Below the pieces are notes generated by a model. The model was not told the origin of the DNA. It searched no databases and saw only the letters and a list, made by a program, of their open reading frames with translations. A DNA stretch of 64,000 bases from Mucilaginibacter rigui. GTDB taxonomy: Bacteria; Bacteroidota; Bacteroidia; Sphingobacteriales; Sphingobacteriaceae. The stretch is from the NCBI RefSeq assembly GCF_014773275.1, contig NZ_JACWMW010000002.1, positions 1 through 64,000 on the forward strand, read 5' to 3'. Positions 40,446 through 46,917 of the stretch are shown here, in pieces. A program made the translations under genes and the position numbers. How positions within the stretch are numbered: the stretch's first letter is position 1; each line of letters opens with the position of its first letter.

Positions 40446-40727
40446 ATGAAAGCTATTTGGAACAACCAGGTTATTGCCGAAAGCAATGATACTGTTGTAG
40501 TAGAGCGAAACCATTATTTCCCGAAAGATAGTGTTAACCCTATTTTTTTACAGGATAGCCCTACCCACACTACCTGCCCGTGGAAAGGCTTAGCATCATA
40601 TTACACACTTGAGGTTGATGGGAAGCAAAACCCGGATGCAGCGTGGTATTATCCGGCGCCCAAACCCGAAGCCGCCCATATTACAAATTACATAGCCTTT
40701 TGGAAAGGTGTGCAAATTACCGAATGA
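40446..40727 (+). CDS. DUF427-family protein
   Basis: A 93-residue soluble protein of the DUF427 family. The pattern KAIWNNQVIAESNDTVVVER, FPKDSV, THTTCPWKGLASYY and AWYYPAPKPEAAHITNYIAF is diagnostic. The compact beta fold has an invariant Cys-Pro-Trp-Lys-Gly loop (about 49-53). Biochemical function is unknown. It opens the DUF427-reductase-ABC-egtBD run; its stop overlaps the next ATG as ATGA. Confidence 0.88.
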   Translation: MKAIWNNQVIAESNDTVVVERNHYFPKDSVNPIFLQDSPTHTTCPWKGLASYYTLEVDGKQNPDAAWYYPAPKPEAAHITNYIAFWKGVQITE

Positions 40728-42115
40728 TGAAAGAATACGATTGTATAGTAATAGGATCCGGCCAGGCAGGCACGCCCTTAGCCAAAAAACTTGCCGGGGC
40801 CGGTAAAAAAACCTTACTGGTAGAGAAGCGCTTTATAGGTGGCACCTGTGTAAACGATGGTTGCACACCTACCAAAACCATGGTGGCCAGCGCGCGCGTG
40901 GCTTACCTGGCAAGCCGTTGTAACGAAATGGGCGTAACCATAAAAGGTTACAAGGTTGATATGCGCCAGATAAAAAAGCATAAGGACGATATCGTGCTTA
41001 AATCTCGTAATGGCGGGCAGGCGGCTGTTGAGAAAACCAAAAATCTCGATCTGCTTTTTGGAGATGCTACTTTCATCGATAAAAAAACCATCAGTGTACA
41101 GCCCGAAAAAGGCAAGACTAAAGAATTTAAGGCCGAACTAATTTTTATCAACACCGGCGCTAAGACTATTATCCCTGATGATATTGAGGGACTGGACGAA
41201 ATAGATTACCTAACCTCTACCACCATCCTCGACCTTGAAAAAGTGCCGGAGCACTTGCTTATTATCGGTGGTAATTATATCGGGCTCGAGTTTGGGCAAA
41301 TGTTCCGCAGGTTTGGCAGCAAGGTAACGATACTCGAAAAATCAGCGCGACTGCTATCCCGCGAGGACGAAGATATCTCTGCCGAGATCACAAAGATCTT
41401 AGAACAGGAGGATATCATCATTCATAGCAATGCCAAAACAACCAAATTCAAACAGAAAGCAAAAGGTAAAATAACTGCTACAGTTAGTGTTAACGGTAAA
41501 GAGCAAAAAATAAAATGCAGCCATGTGCTCATAGCTATTGGTCGCGCGCCGCAAACAGACACGCTGGGGTTAGATAAAACCGGCGTAAAGATGGACGAGA
41601 AAGGTAATATCAAAGTAAACGGCAAGCTGGAAACCAACGTAAAGGGTATTTATGCCCTTGGCGATGTAAAAGGCGGCCCGGCATTTACGCATATCTCTTA
41701 TAACGATTATACCATTGTTTACCGCAACCTGATAGAAAAACAAAACCTGAATATCAATAACAGGCCCATCCCCTACTGTATGTTTACCGATCCCGAACTT
41801 GGCCGTGTGGGTATCACCGAGGCGCAGGCTAAAGAGCAGGGACTAAATTACAAGGTAGCAACACTGCCCATGGAACATGTTGCCCGCGCCATTGAAACCG
41901 GCGATACACGCGGCATGATGAAAGCCGTGGTTGACCCCAAAACCAAAAAGATCTTAGGCGCGGCCATTGTAGGGACCGAAGGCGGCGAGATCATGTCGGT
42001 TTTACAAATGGCTATGGAGGGCGGTATCACTTACGACAGGATCCGTTATTGCGTGTTCGCGCACCCAACCTACTCCGAATCGTTAAACAACCTGTTTATG
42101 GGTTTAGAGGATTAA
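40724..42115 (+). CDS. Class I pyridine-nucleotide disulfide oxidoreductase (MerA/Lpd-like)
   Basis: Homodimeric FAD enzyme that passes electrons from NAD(P)H through a redox-active disulfide. The FAD motif GSGQAG is at 11-16 and the active disulfide C42/C47 in GGTCVNDGCTPTK. NAD(P)-binding IIGGNYIGLEFG is about 182-193, and the second FAD motif is YALGDVKGG. The C-terminal catalytic His-Glu pair is in FAHPTYSESL. The MerA-specific C-terminal Cys pair and N-terminal HMA domain are absent, so mercuric reduction is unlikely. Start ATG 40724 overlaps the DUF427 stop. Given its neighbours, it may reduce a thione/thiol-derived disulfide. Confidence 0.9.
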   Translation: MMKEYDCIVIGSGQAGTPLAKKLAGAGKKTLLVEKRFIGGTCVNDGCTPTKTMVASARVAYLASRCNEMGVTIKGYKVDMRQIKKHKDDIVLKSRNGGQAAVEKTKNLDLLFGDATFIDKKTISVQPEKGKTKEFKAELIFINTGAKTIIPDDIEGLDEIDYLTSTTILDLEKVPEHLLIIGGNYIGLEFGQMFRRFGSKVTILEKSARLLSREDEDISAEITKILEQEDIIIHSNAKTTKFKQKAKGKITATVSVNGKEQKIKCSHVLIAIGRAPQTDTLGLDKTGVKMDEKGNIKVNGKLETNVKGIYALGDVKGGPAFTHISYNDYTIVYRNLIEKQNLNINNRPIPYCMFTDPELGRVGITEAQAKEQGLNYKVATLPMEHVARAIETGDTRGMMKAVVDPKTKKILGAAIVGTEGGEIMSVLQMAMEGGITYDRIRYCVFAHPTYSESLNNLFMGLED

Positions 42116-42122
42116 GCCCGCT

Positions 42123-43088
42123 ATGATAAAAATTGATCGCCTTGTAAAAACCTTCGGCGCCACAAAAGCGGTTGACGGGATCTCCTTTGAGGTGAACGAG
42201 GGCGAAAACATGGTGCTTTTAGGCACCAGCGGCTGTGGTAAAACAACCACCCTGAAAATGCTTAACCGTTTGATAGAACCCGATAGCGGTACAATTTCTA
42301 TCAACGGGGAAAACATTATGGAACAGCCGCCGGAGTTATTGCGCCGTGGTATTGGCTACGTGTTGCAAAATAACGGCTTATTCCCTCACTATACCGTTGC
42401 CGAAAACATTGCCATTGTACCAAACTTGTTAAAATGGGATAAGGCCAAAACCCAAAAACGTATCGAGGAACTATTAGGCAAGCTGCATCTCGATAAAAAA
42501 TACCTAAACGTTTATCCTAACGAGCTAAGCGGCGGTCAGCAGCAACGTATTGGGCTGGCAAGAGCTTTAGTGGCCGACCCGCCGGTGTTGCTGATGGACG
42601 AACCATTCGGCGCGCTGGATAATGTTACACGTTCAAAAATTCACCGGGAGTTTTTAGCGTTGGACGAATTGAAACGTAAAACCATCATTATGGTTACCCA
42701 CGATGTGCAGGAGGCCTTTGAACTGGCCGACCGTATAGCGCTAATGGATAAAGGAAAAATTGTGCAGATAGGGTCGCCATCCGATCTGTTATTTAACCCT
42801 AAAAGCGCTTTTGTGCGCGATTTCCTGAAAGAGCAGCACCTGCAACTGGAGTTTAAAACTATTACCTTAAATGATATCTGGCAACATCTGCCACCCGCTG
42901 CCGGGGATAAAAACACCCATCACCTACCTGCTGAAGCGGGTGTATGGGATGTGTTAGAGAAATTTAAATTCTCCCCGAAAGAACACTTGGATATAATTAA
43001 TAAACAAAACAAAGAGGTTAAATCCATCACGTTTGATGAGTTAATGGCTGCATTTTCAAAGTATAAAAACCACCAGGCACATGAATGA
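42123..43088 (+). CDS. ABC ATPase of an osmoprotectant/ergothioneine-type importer
   Basis: Importer ATPase of the OpuCA/ProV type. Walker A GTSGCGKTT is at about 36-44, followed by Q-loop QNNGLFP, signature LSGGQQQRIGLARAL, Walker B VLLMDEPFGALD and switch His in MVTHDVQEAF. The C-terminal region beyond 240 has no CBS pair; it is a short divergent tail. It overlaps the permease gene by 8 bases. The same ATPase class powers EgtV of the EgtUV ergothioneine importer. Adjacent egtB and egtD make that substrate, or hercynine, more likely here than glycine betaine. Confidence 0.88.
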   Translation: MIKIDRLVKTFGATKAVDGISFEVNEGENMVLLGTSGCGKTTTLKMLNRLIEPDSGTISINGENIMEQPPELLRRGIGYVLQNNGLFPHYTVAENIAIVPNLLKWDKAKTQKRIEELLGKLHLDKKYLNVYPNELSGGQQQRIGLARALVADPPVLLMDEPFGALDNVTRSKIHREFLALDELKRKTIIMVTHDVQEAFELADRIALMDKGKIVQIGSPSDLLFNPKSAFVRDFLKEQHLQLEFKTITLNDIWQHLPPAAGDKNTHHLPAEAGVWDVLEKFKFSPKEHLDIINKQNKEVKSITFDELMAAFSKYKNHQAHE

Positions 43089-44652
43089 GCATCAGCAAAC
43101 CCTGTGGGAATTTATGCAGCAACAAGCCGATAAGCTTGGCGTACAAACCATGCAGCACATCGGGCTTACATTTATATCGTTGTTTATTGCCGTTTTGGTG
43201 GGCTTGCCTTTGGGTATCTACATCACCCGTAAAAAACAACTTTCGGGTATTGTGCTGGGCATCGCGGGCATTCTGCAAACCATCCCAAGTATTGCTCTCC
43301 TTGGTTTTATGATACCTGTTTTGGGCATCGGCGCAAAGCCTGCTATTGTAGCTTTGCTGCTTTATGCTCTGCTACCCATCATCCGCAATACTTACACGGG
43401 TATCACCGGGGTTGATGGGGCTGTTAAAGAAGCCGCTGTGGCCATGGGCATGAACAAGTGGCAGGTATTATTTAAAGTTGAATTGCCCCTGGCTATGCCG
43501 GTAATTTTGGCCGGTATCCGTACGGCAACGGTTATCAACGTGGGGGTAGCAACCCTGGCATCATATATAGCAGCGGGCGGCCTGGGCGAGTTTATCTTCG
43601 GAGGTATCTCCCTCAATAATACCAATATGATACTGGCGGGTGCTATCCCGGCGGCAATACTGGCTATCCTGTTCGATTTCCTGCTATCGCGACTGCAAAA
43701 GCTCAACTTTAAAAAGATAAAAGGCGCGGTTAGGTTTGCACCTGCATTGCTAATATTACTATCAGGTCTGTACTTCATTCCATCGGCCTATGGCAGCAAG
43801 CTTACCGCCGGTTTTACGCCCGAATTTATGGGGCGGCAGGATGGCAACCTCGGCCTCATCAGCAAATACGGTTTAAAGATCCACACCATTGTGATAAATG
43901 ACGCGGTGATGTATAAGGCCGCGCAGGAGAAAGAACTTGACGTGATCAGCGGATATTCTACAGATGGACGTTTGAAAGCTTACAATCTGATAGTGCTGGA
44001 TGATGATAAAAAGATCTTCCCGCCTTATTATGCAGCGCCCATTGTACGCGGGGATGCCCTGCGGAAATTCCCCGAACTGGAAAAAACATTGAACCTGTTA
44101 GCCGGCACAATTACTGACTCGGTAATGACCGAACTAAACTATAAAACCGATTACCTTCACCAAACGCCGGAGCGGGTAGCAAAAGATTTCCTGCTATCCA
44201 AAAAGCTATACAAACCCGAGCGTGGGGGCCATGATGCTGTGGTGCGCATCGGCTCAAAAATATTTGGTGAGCAGTATATTTTAGCCAGCATGTACACCAT
44301 GTTGATAAAAGGCTACACCAACTATGATGTAGCGACCAAAACCGGCTTAGGCGGCACCAAAATAGTTTTTGATGCCATGACTAACGACCAGATAGACGTT
44401 TACCCGGAATACACCGGCACCGGCCTGCTGGCCATATTACAGGCCCCGCCGCAAACGGTAACCCGGCTGCAGGTGAGCAAGGATAGTACCTACAATTACG
44501 TGCAGGCCGAGTTTAAAAAACGGTATAATATTAAATGGTTAAAACCAATTGGCTTTAATAATGCGTATGCATTAATGATGCGCGAGCAGCAGGCAAAAGA
44601 ACTCAACATAAAAACAATTTCGAACCTTAAACGCTATTTAGATAGCAAGTAA
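43081..44652 (+). CDS. ABC permease fused to a lobe-swapped substrate-binding domain
   Basis: One polypeptide holds the channel and its binding protein. The permease (residues 1-205) has about five or six helices and the ATPase-contact EAA loop (EAAVAMGMNKWQVLFKVELP, 118-137). A further helix (about 218-236) leads to an extracytoplasmic OpuCC/ProX-like domain. In ordinary members the lobe with GSKxFxEQ and YPEYTGTG comes first and the lobe with YSTDGR and DDKxxFPPY comes second. Here the second lobe (241-377: GFTPEF, GYSTDGRLKAYNL, LDDDKKIFPPYY, ELNY) precedes the first (386-523: RIGSKIFGEQYIL, LGGTKIVF, DVYPEYTGTG, GFNNAYAL). The domain is thus circularly permuted but complete. Placed just before egtB, it resembles an EgtU-type importer. 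Confidence 0.87.
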   Translation: MNEHQQTLWEFMQQQADKLGVQTMQHIGLTFISLFIAVLVGLPLGIYITRKKQLSGIVLGIAGILQTIPSIALLGFMIPVLGIGAKPAIVALLLYALLPIIRNTYTGITGVDGAVKEAAVAMGMNKWQVLFKVELPLAMPVILAGIRTATVINVGVATLASYIAAGGLGEFIFGGISLNNTNMILAGAIPAAILAILFDFLLSRLQKLNFKKIKGAVRFAPALLILLSGLYFIPSAYGSKLTAGFTPEFMGRQDGNLGLISKYGLKIHTIVINDAVMYKAAQEKELDVISGYSTDGRLKAYNLIVLDDDKKIFPPYYAAPIVRGDALRKFPELEKTLNLLAGTITDSVMTELNYKTDYLHQTPERVAKDFLLSKKLYKPERGGHDAVVRIGSKIFGEQYILASMYTMLIKGYTNYDVATKTGLGGTKIVFDAMTNDQIDVYPEYTGTGLLAILQAPPQTVTRLQVSKDSTYNYVQAEFKKRYNIKWLKPIGFNNAYALMMREQQAKELNIKTISNLKRYLDSK

Positions 44653-44657
44653 TACCA

Positions 44658-45809
44658 ATGGACATAGCCGACTGTTATATAAAAGTACGCCACCGCACCG
44701 AAGCAATTTGCGAACCCCTGCAAATTGAGGATTATGTAGTACAACCTGTGGTTGATGTTAGTCCGCCTAAGTGGCATATAGGGCACACCACCTGGTTTTT
44801 CGAAACTTTTATCCTGAAACCTTACTTCGCCGAATACCAGGAATTCGACCCAAACTATAACTACGTTTTTAACAGCTATTACGAAACCGTTGGCAACCGC
44901 GTTATCCGTACCGACAGGGGTAACCTGAGCCGGCCAACCGTTATCGATATAAAACGTTACCGCAAGTATGTAGATGATGCCATGCTAAACTTTATTACCT
45001 GCGGCGATATCAGCGACGACGTAAAAGAACTATTGATCCTTGGCTTTAACCACGAGGAGCAGCACCAGGAACTTTTACTAACCGATATTAAATACATACT
45101 GGGTAATAACCCATTGTTCCCGGCGTATTCAAAAGATTATGCGGCTCCAAAATCGCACAAAACAGGTGCGCCTTTTATTAAACTGAATGAGGGCATTTAC
45201 GAGATTGGTTTTGAAGGCGAGGGTTTCTCTTTCGACAATGAGTTAAACCGTCATAAGGTTTACCTGAATGCCTTTGAGATAAGCCCCGACCTGGTGACCA
45301 ACGCAGAATATTTAGAGTTTATAAACGCAGGTGGCTACCACGATTTCCGCCACTGGCATGCCGCCGGCTGGGATTGGGTAAACAACAACAAGGCAGAAGC
45401 CCCAATGTACTGGCATAATATAGACGGTGAATGGCATAACTATACCTACCACGGCTTACAGCCTGTACATATGCATGATGCGGTTACCCATATCAGCTAT
45501 TACGAAGCTTATGCTTACGCCTCATGGAAAGGCATGCGCCTGCCAACCGAGTTTGAATGGGAGGCCGCAGCAAAACAATTTAACTGGGGCCTGCGCTGGG
45601 AATGGACAGAAAGCGCCTACCTGCCCTACCCCGGTTTTGCCAAAGCGCCCGGCGCCATTGGTGAATACAACGGCAAATTTATGGTAGGCCAGAAGGTTTT
45701 GCGCGGGGCATCAGAAGTAACATCACCAAACCATAGCCGCATAACTTACCGCAACTTTTTTCAGCCGGAACTACGCTGGCAATTTACTGGCATACGTCTT
45801 GCTAAATAA
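44658..45809 (+). CDS. egtB: EgtB-type sulfoxide synthase (hercynine oxygenase)
   Basis: Non-heme iron enzyme that joins hercynine to a thiol donor (gamma-glutamylcysteine or cysteine) with O2, the C-S bond step of ergothioneine synthesis. The N-terminal DinB-like domain supplies the iron ligands: H43 in HIGHTTWFFE and H132/H136 in NHEEQHQELL. The C-terminal FGE-sulfatase-like domain (about 170-383) has EAYAYASWKGMRLPTEFEWE, WEWTESAYLPYPGF and RNFFQPELRWQFTGIRLAK. At 383 residues it is close to the family norm. It starts 5 bases after the transporter gene; egtD follows 121 bases later. No egtA, egtC or egtE is seen nearby, so the sulfur donor is open. Confidence 0.92.
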   Translation: MDIADCYIKVRHRTEAICEPLQIEDYVVQPVVDVSPPKWHIGHTTWFFETFILKPYFAEYQEFDPNYNYVFNSYYETVGNRVIRTDRGNLSRPTVIDIKRYRKYVDDAMLNFITCGDISDDVKELLILGFNHEEQHQELLLTDIKYILGNNPLFPAYSKDYAAPKSHKTGAPFIKLNEGIYEIGFEGEGFSFDNELNRHKVYLNAFEISPDLVTNAEYLEFINAGGYHDFRHWHAAGWDWVNNNKAEAPMYWHNIDGEWHNYTYHGLQPVHMHDAVTHISYYEAYAYASWKGMRLPTEFEWEAAAKQFNWGLRWEWTESAYLPYPGFAKAPGAIGEYNGKFMVGQKVLRGASEVTSPNHSRITYRNFFQPELRWQFTGIRLAK

Positions 45810-45930: not shown

Positions 45931-46917
45931 ATGGCTTCTACCACCACAGCAACACAACAAACAAACAGCGTACTTACCGATGAGCAGTTTTATAAGGACG
46001 TTGTAACCGGTTTAACATCCACGCCCAAACACCTGGATTCGAAATACTTTTATGATGCCCAGGGCGACAGGATCTTCCAGGAGCTGATGGGCTGCGAAGA
46101 GTACTATCCCACCAATTGCGAGATGGAGATCTTCACCAGTCAAACCGCCGAAATTTGTAAGGCTATTATTGCCGGTGGCGATGCATTCGACCTGATTGAG
46201 CTGGGTGCCGGCGATGCCACAAAATCGACCCAATTATTAAAGTACCTTATAGATAATAAAGCCGATTTTACCTACCTGCCGATAGATATCTCGGAGAATG
46301 TGATATCGTACTTAAATATTACCCTGCCCGTTACCCTGCCCGGCATCAACATTACCGGCCTTAACGGCGAATATTTTGATATGCTGAAGAAAGCGGCATC
46401 AATCTCCAATAAACGCAAAGTGGTGATGTTCCTGGGATCCAACGTGGGTAATATGCCTGTTGATGTGGCCCGGAGCTTTTGCCACGAATTGCGTAACAAT
46501 CTGTCCGAAGGTGATATGGTACTGATCGGTATCGACCTGAAGAAAAACCCAAAGACCGTTTTAGCCGCCTATAATGATAGCGAAGGCATTACCAAGCGTT
46601 TTAACATTAACCTGCTGGAACGTATAAACCGCGAGCTTGGCGGCGATTTTAATACCCGCCAGTTTGACCACTACGCCTCTTACAACCCCGAAACCGGTGC
46701 CTGTAAAAGCTACCTGATAAGCCTTGCCGACCAGAAAGTAAAAATTGGCGATGTAACTATCAGCTTTTTGAAGGACGAATACATTGATATGGAGATCTCT
46801 CAAAAATACGCTTTAGAGCAAACCCATGAGCTGGCAGCACAGGCCGGTTTTAAGCCGATGTCTGAGTTTTTTGACAGCAAAAAATGGTTTGTTGACGCCA
46901 TTTGGACTGCGGAGTGA
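45931..46917 (+). CDS. egtD: EgtD-type L-histidine N-alpha-methyltransferase
   Basis: SAM-dependent enzyme that trimethylates histidine to hercynine, the first step of ergothioneine synthesis. The DUF2260/Methyltransf_33 features are EEYYPTNCEMEIF (about 56-68), SAM motif LIELGAGDATKSTQLL (about 88-103), FLGSNVGNM and the C-terminal ALEQTHELAAQAGF. At 328 residues it is a standard length. It is the last gene of the egt run; an inverted repeat lies between it and egtB. Identification is firm. Confidence 0.93.
   Translation: MASTTTATQQTNSVLTDEQFYKDVVTGLTSTPKHLDSKYFYDAQGDRIFQELMGCEEYYPTNCEMEIFTSQTAEICKAIIAGGDAFDLIELGAGDATKSTQLLKYLIDNKADFTYLPIDISENVISYLNITLPVTLPGINITGLNGEYFDMLKKAASISNKRKVVMFLGSNVGNMPVDVARSFCHELRNNLSEGDMVLIGIDLKKNPKTVLAAYNDSEGITKRFNINLLERINRELGGDFNTRQFDHYASYNPETGACKSYLISLADQKVKIGDVTISFLKDEYIDMEISQKYALEQTHELAAQAGFKPMSEFFDSKKWFVDAIWTAE

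Follow-up and report, generated by a model that had tools for sequence, protein, structure and literature searches.

The 523-residue protein encoded at 43081-44652 of the window (the whole 64,000-nucleotide stretch of Mucilaginibacter rigui DNA analysed here) consists of a BPD_transp_1 permease and a C-terminal OpuAC-type substrate-binding domain (SBD), and this SBD is a genuine circular permutant of a tyrosine-cage SBD of the AfProX/OpuCC/EgtU kind (probability about 98%). We designated the permease T and the conventional N- and C-terminal halves of the SBD A and B, respectively; the window protein is T-B-A. The Pfam profile PF04069 matched it twice: residues ~238-371 correspond to profile positions 111/112-255 and residues ~388-521 to positions 3-113, which violates the linear order of the profile, with 111-255 ahead of 3-113. 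Each half scanned alone against PF04069 scored 109.1 and 90.5 bits, both above the curated cut-off of 21.2. In a phmmer alignment, SBD residues 4-142 matched residues 138-276 of the Streptococcus pneumoniae EgtUC (SpEgtUC) chain (9egi), and residues 154-282 matched residues 10-134. The earlier note had proposed a circular permutation without loss of motifs; the motifs that it named are found where it placed them, and the swap is seen in both the PF04069 and the SpEgtUC alignments. The limits of the two lobes were transferred from SpEgtUC, in which D1 comprises residues 233-331 and 445-506, D2 comprises 341-432, and the hinges lie between them (PMC9732360). The fusion is arranged as follows.

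43081..43701, + strand: permease (TMD, BPD_transp_1), residues 1-207 (PF00528 at residues 41-214, 94.9 bits; model helices up to 207)
43708..43788, + strand: extra hydrophobic helix, residues 210-236 (model helix; hydropathy of residues 215-234, 1.8)
43798..43995, + strand: lobe D2 part 1, residues 240-305, with E248, R252 and Y292 (aligned to SpEgtUC 367-432)
43996..44031, + strand: hinge strand from D2 to D1, residues 306-317, with cage residue Y316 (SpEgtUC 433-444, between the published domains; PMC9732360)
44032..44193, + strand: lobe D1 part 1, residues 318-371, the conventional C-terminal part (SpEgtUC 445 onward)
44194..44244, + strand: junction loop, residues 372-388, between what were the C- and N-termini (low conservation, variable length)
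44245..44538, + strand: lobe D1 part 2, residues 389-486, the conventional N-terminal part, with K393, F395, T426, Y444 and T447 (PF04069 from position 3; SpEgtUC up to 331)
44539..44565, + strand: second hinge strand, from D1 to D2, residues 487-495, with F492 and N494 (SpEgtUC 332-340)
44566..44649, + strand: lobe D2 part 2, residues 496-523, with cage residue Y496 and the new C-terminus (SpEgtUC 341 onward)

The cut lies inside D2, where a strand beginning at 241 has been parted from the helix close to the new C-terminus. Because of this position, both hinge strands are retained in the mapping to SpEgtUC and the lobes exchange roles: as aligned, D2 is split and tethered here and D1 is contiguous, whereas in EgtU it is D1 that is split and tethered. 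The earlier note was thus right that the tethered lobe changes (D2 in place of D1), but residues 241-377 and 386-523, which it took for the two lobes, are the swapped sequence halves. A cut at the hinge that leaves a single hinge strand was also considered and was ruled out by the SpEgtUC domain limits. In a type I ABC importer of the ProU/OpuC/EgtU kind, the fusion would supply both the permease and the SBD and would pair with the ATPase encoded at 42123-43088. Helix 210-236, which starts with the basic stretch FKKIK, probably takes the chain to the periplasm, in the orientation that we infer, and tethers the SBD. After this extra membrane helix, the chain would form part of D2, pass the hinge, form all of D1, and pass back to complete D2.

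AlphaFold2 with the T-B-A alignment gave a pLDDT of 85.7 and a pTM of 0.72 for the whole protein, and 93.1 and 0.89 for the SBD alone. These scores indicate that the two halves form one compact domain in the model. The two marks of a permutant in a type II substrate-binding protein, a swapped sequence order and one compact fold, were both found. The predicted ligand cleft is kept, and the domain may close on a ligand. A good whole-length Foldseek alignment was obtained only with Bacillus subtilis OpuAC (2b4m; 297 columns, TM 0.69, 16% identity), and the alignment with EgtUC covered one half only (139 columns, 45% identity, TM 0.46); Foldseek keeps chain order, and pseudo-symmetric lobes may inflate such alignments. 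The top Foldseek match, Lactococcus lactis OpuA (7AHC-7AHH, 3L6G), also carries a C-terminal SBD on its permease, but it was rejected as a precedent for the order: the sequence of its SBD, which has a tryptophan cage, runs collinear with that of E. coli ProX, and the structural alignment is loose (rmsd 6-8). Treponema pallidum MglB-2 is another naturally permuted, membrane-tethered binding protein, which still binds its ligand and shifts conformation (PMC4990184); it differs in being a lipoprotein of the type I sugar-binding fold, and its permutation adds a fourth lobe crossing.

The family survey yielded 45 full-length homologues that were collinear with the window protein, at identities down to 60%. 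PF04069 was present in 60 of 396 Bacteroidota genomes, 21 of which had the split B-A order; 20 of these 21 cases are a single uninterrupted frame (521-568 aa), and the remaining one (G013) is broken by a stop. This permuted homologue (L030, G013:C1:109234-110793), with its internal TAA, represents a pseudogene or a sequencing error. The 80 named loci retained from the genome collection were all T-B-A. The T-B-A genera include Mucilaginibacter, Pedobacter, Sphingobacterium, Chitinophaga, Segetibacter, Niastella, Chryseobacterium, Epilithonimonas, Dyadobacter, Spirosoma, Larkinella, Hymenobacter, Pontibacter, and others. That the junction is chimeric or stems from a frameshift or assembly error is virtually inconceivable, since more than 100 separately assembled loci share the same order in a single open frame; an error at 44215-44240, which the earlier note had named as a risk, is thereby refuted. 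The mean column identity of the junction (372-388) was 0.41, compared with about 0.70-0.83 on its flanks, which ranks it with the most variable parts of the SBD, and its length varied across 28 homologues. Such weak conservation is expected of a loop where old termini became joined.

Among 137 parsed loci, 123 were T-B-A, 10 were A-B-T (nine from Bacteroidota and one from Gemmatirosa), and 4 were T-A-B (three from Firmicutes and one from Fusobacteria). The earlier note had not mentioned that Bacteroidota also have relatives of normal order fused in the opposite sense, SBD-permease. These fusions (L047-L055 and L137) belong to other Bacteroidota families and Gemmatirosa, and some of them, such as L050, also lie near egtB/egtD. 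A homologue on a Fusobacteria plasmid, at one point taken as permuted, was parsed as permease-A-B.

In the permease tree, every architecture formed one side of a branch, with support of 88/77 for T-B-A, 97/93 for A-B-T, and 94/90 for T-A-B. The SBD tree, built with the halves in a common order, was less clean owing to long branches, and a long-branch Fusobacteria T-A-B sequence was placed among T-B-A; a single T-B-A clade was not rejected (p-AU 0.214). There is moderate support for such a clade, and the permutation probably arose once. By the simplest route, a C-terminal SBD of a T-A-B fusion would have been duplicated and its outer halves then lost, giving T-B-A. No tandem-SBD intermediate was found in the 396 Bacteroidota genomes, and a search for DNA repeats marking the rearrangement found only those of chance length.

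A structural permutation among glycine-betaine-binding proteins was published in 2008 (PMC2395249), and B. subtilis OpuAC (2B4L/2B4M) is a precedent among OpuA-type domains, as the earlier note had said to exist. OpuAC is permuted in sequence against E. coli ProX: ProX 154-218 corresponds to OpuAC 14-77 and ProX 28-121 to OpuAC 164-255. The SBD model is collinear with OpuAC over its whole length, and the alignment puts the cut at the corresponding place, as would fit a B-A order inherited from or shared with the OpuA-kind OpuAC, that is, one old permutation and no parallel one. Such a shared origin is nevertheless improbable: the SBD resembles EgtUC (B half about 45% identical) much more than it does OpuAC (14-16%), its cage is tyrosine-based whereas OpuAC uses tryptophans (PMC2861598), and the permease tree sets T-B-A beside the EgtU-type T-A-B permeases. 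OpuAC is a separate, lipid-anchored protein with glycine betaine as its cargo. From the high similarity to EgtU, the tyrosine cage, and the low similarity to OpuAC, we consider it likely that the permutation occurred independently of OpuAC's. In the open-licence literature, we found no description of this permutation in EgtU-type or Bacteroidota fusions. What is new is that the B-A order occurs in the tyrosine-cage EgtU/ProX branch, where it seems to have originated independently; the order itself was already known from OpuAC.

The binding pocket was compared at the 14 sites defined for the SpEgtUC-ergothioneine complex, at which the window protein has ERYYKIFGTYTFNY. The EgtU cage residues Y341, Y419, Y443, and N339 are present as Y496, Y292, Y316, and N494, and the contacts K242, T296, R379, and E375 as K393, T447, R252, and E248; the K, T, and R contacts to the carboxylate and the E contact to the imidazole are all kept. 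The EgtU pair F293 and Y337 is absent and is replaced by Y444 and F492 in all 82 tabulated T-B-A SBDs. EgtU-invariant G244 is also absent, with F395 here; 78 of the same 82 have F at this site and the other 4 have Q. The A-B-T relatives show the same pocket pattern. Of the 61 egt-linked T-B-A sequences, 8 have S in the Y292 column. Four Tyr together with F at the G244 and Y337 sites place the pocket in the AfProX type (AfProX as given in PMC9732360). Archaeoglobus fulgidus ProX (1SW1/1SW2) has this tyrosine-cage pocket with matching residues, but it is an unfused binding protein of A-B order.

S. pneumoniae EgtU (EgtUBC; 7TXK/7TXL) resembles the window protein as a permease-SBD fusion with a C-terminal SBD, both halves of which align and share the cage and carboxylate-binding residues. 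It differs in its A-B order, in possessing G244 and F293/Y337, and in that its described locus lacks egt biosynthesis genes. The label 'EgtU-like' in the earlier note therefore holds for the overall sequence and fails for the pocket (G244 to F395, F293/Y337 to Y444/F492), and by the EgtU-specific residues the window SBD would not be classed as an EgtU. The substitution G244F lowers the affinity of SpEgtUC about 100-fold (PMC9732360). Other subclusters also lack the EgtU determinants, and Helicobacter pylori members aid ergothioneine uptake with lower affinity (PMC9732360), so ergothioneine may still be the cargo here.

The genes around the fusion are as follows.

40446..40727, + strand: DUF427 protein (NTP_transf_9), head of the operon (PF04248, 114.7 bits)
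40709..42115, + strand: FAD/NAD(P) disulfide oxidoreductase with a CVNDGC motif (PF07992/PF02852; PRK06370-like, 542.6 bits, below cut-off)
42123..43088, + strand: ABC ATPase (PF00005; best NCBIfam match proV, 306 bits, just under the cut-off of 326.6)
44658..45809, + strand: EgtB, ergothioneine biosynthesis (TIGR03440, 531.6 bits, cut-off 360; below the SenA cut-off, 356.5 of 420)
45931..46917, + strand: EgtD, histidine N-alpha-methyltransferase (PF10017, 324.9 bits; TIGR03438, 287.5 bits, cut-off 290.9)

From the oxidoreductase gene through those for the ATPase, the fusion, and EgtB, neighbours lie at most 7 bases apart or overlap, as the ATPase and fusion genes do by 8 bases, and EgtD starts 121 bases past EgtB. 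The oxidoreductase is a candidate ergothioneine disulfide reductase. Many of the permuted loci in Sphingobacteriaceae and Chitinophagaceae have its gene next to the transporter, and on a Lacticaseibacillus plasmid a distant flavoprotein (27% identity) adjoins an EgtU-type transporter. The DUF427 gene is kept in many Mucilaginibacter loci and, in some Spirosoma loci without egt neighbours, adjoins the ATPase gene.

Within 6 kb of the T-B-A gene, EgtB was found in 61 and EgtD in 59 of 80 loci. In Chryseobacterium loci, the egt genes are upstream and not downstream, and this varied position suggests that the linkage is functional and not accidental. The transporter (T-B-A or A-B-T) was present in 52 of 396 Bacteroidota genomes, 51 of which carry EgtD, compared with 129 of 396 (33%) overall (Fisher p 1.7e-27, a value that ignores relatedness between genomes). 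Of 45 genomes examined, all of them transporter-bearing, 37 have an EgtB scoring above cut-off and 44 carry EgtD. The egtB-egtD operon and the genome-wide co-occurrence with EgtD point to a carboxylated histidine betaine, that is, ergothioneine or its precursor hercynine, as the putative cargo, which we regard as fairly likely. Two observations speak against it. The EgtU determinants for ergothioneine are missing, and those sites carry the residues of AfProX, which binds glycine betaine. Among Cytophagales (Spirosoma, Hymenobacter, Larkinella), no egt genes adjoin the fusion, even though EgtB and EgtD occur elsewhere in those genomes that were sampled.

The AfProX-type pocket would suit the same permuted importer with glycine betaine, choline, or another compatible solute as its cargo, the egt neighbours then reflecting a shared stress-response operon and not shared chemistry. 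The best NCBIfam match of the SBD, OsmF (glycine betaine), like the proV match of the ATPase, agrees with such a cargo, both being below cut-off. A compatible solute is nonetheless rather doubtful, given EgtD in 51 of the 52 genomes and the adjacency of egtB/egtD conserved in most loci. The results can be combined into a tentative picture, which we rate a little short of an even chance: one ancient permutation, independent of that in OpuAC but reaching the same order, would have founded Bacteroidota-wide histidine-betaine importers with D2, ordinarily the free lobe, tethered, and sister lineages would keep the SBD-permease and the unpermuted permease-SBD fusions.

With the SBD in three arrangements (SBD-permease, permease-SBD, and permease-permuted SBD), homologous importers could serve as a natural three-way experiment on tethering geometry in type I importers, and comparing them would show directly whether docking and release depend on which lobe is tethered. 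If the same permutation was indeed reached twice, this would suggest an easy route via the pseudo-symmetric lobes. The conserved linkage to egtB-egtD points to a candidate importer of ergothioneine or hercynine whose pocket differs from that of the Firmicutes EgtU and whose hosts have the biosynthesis genes as well.
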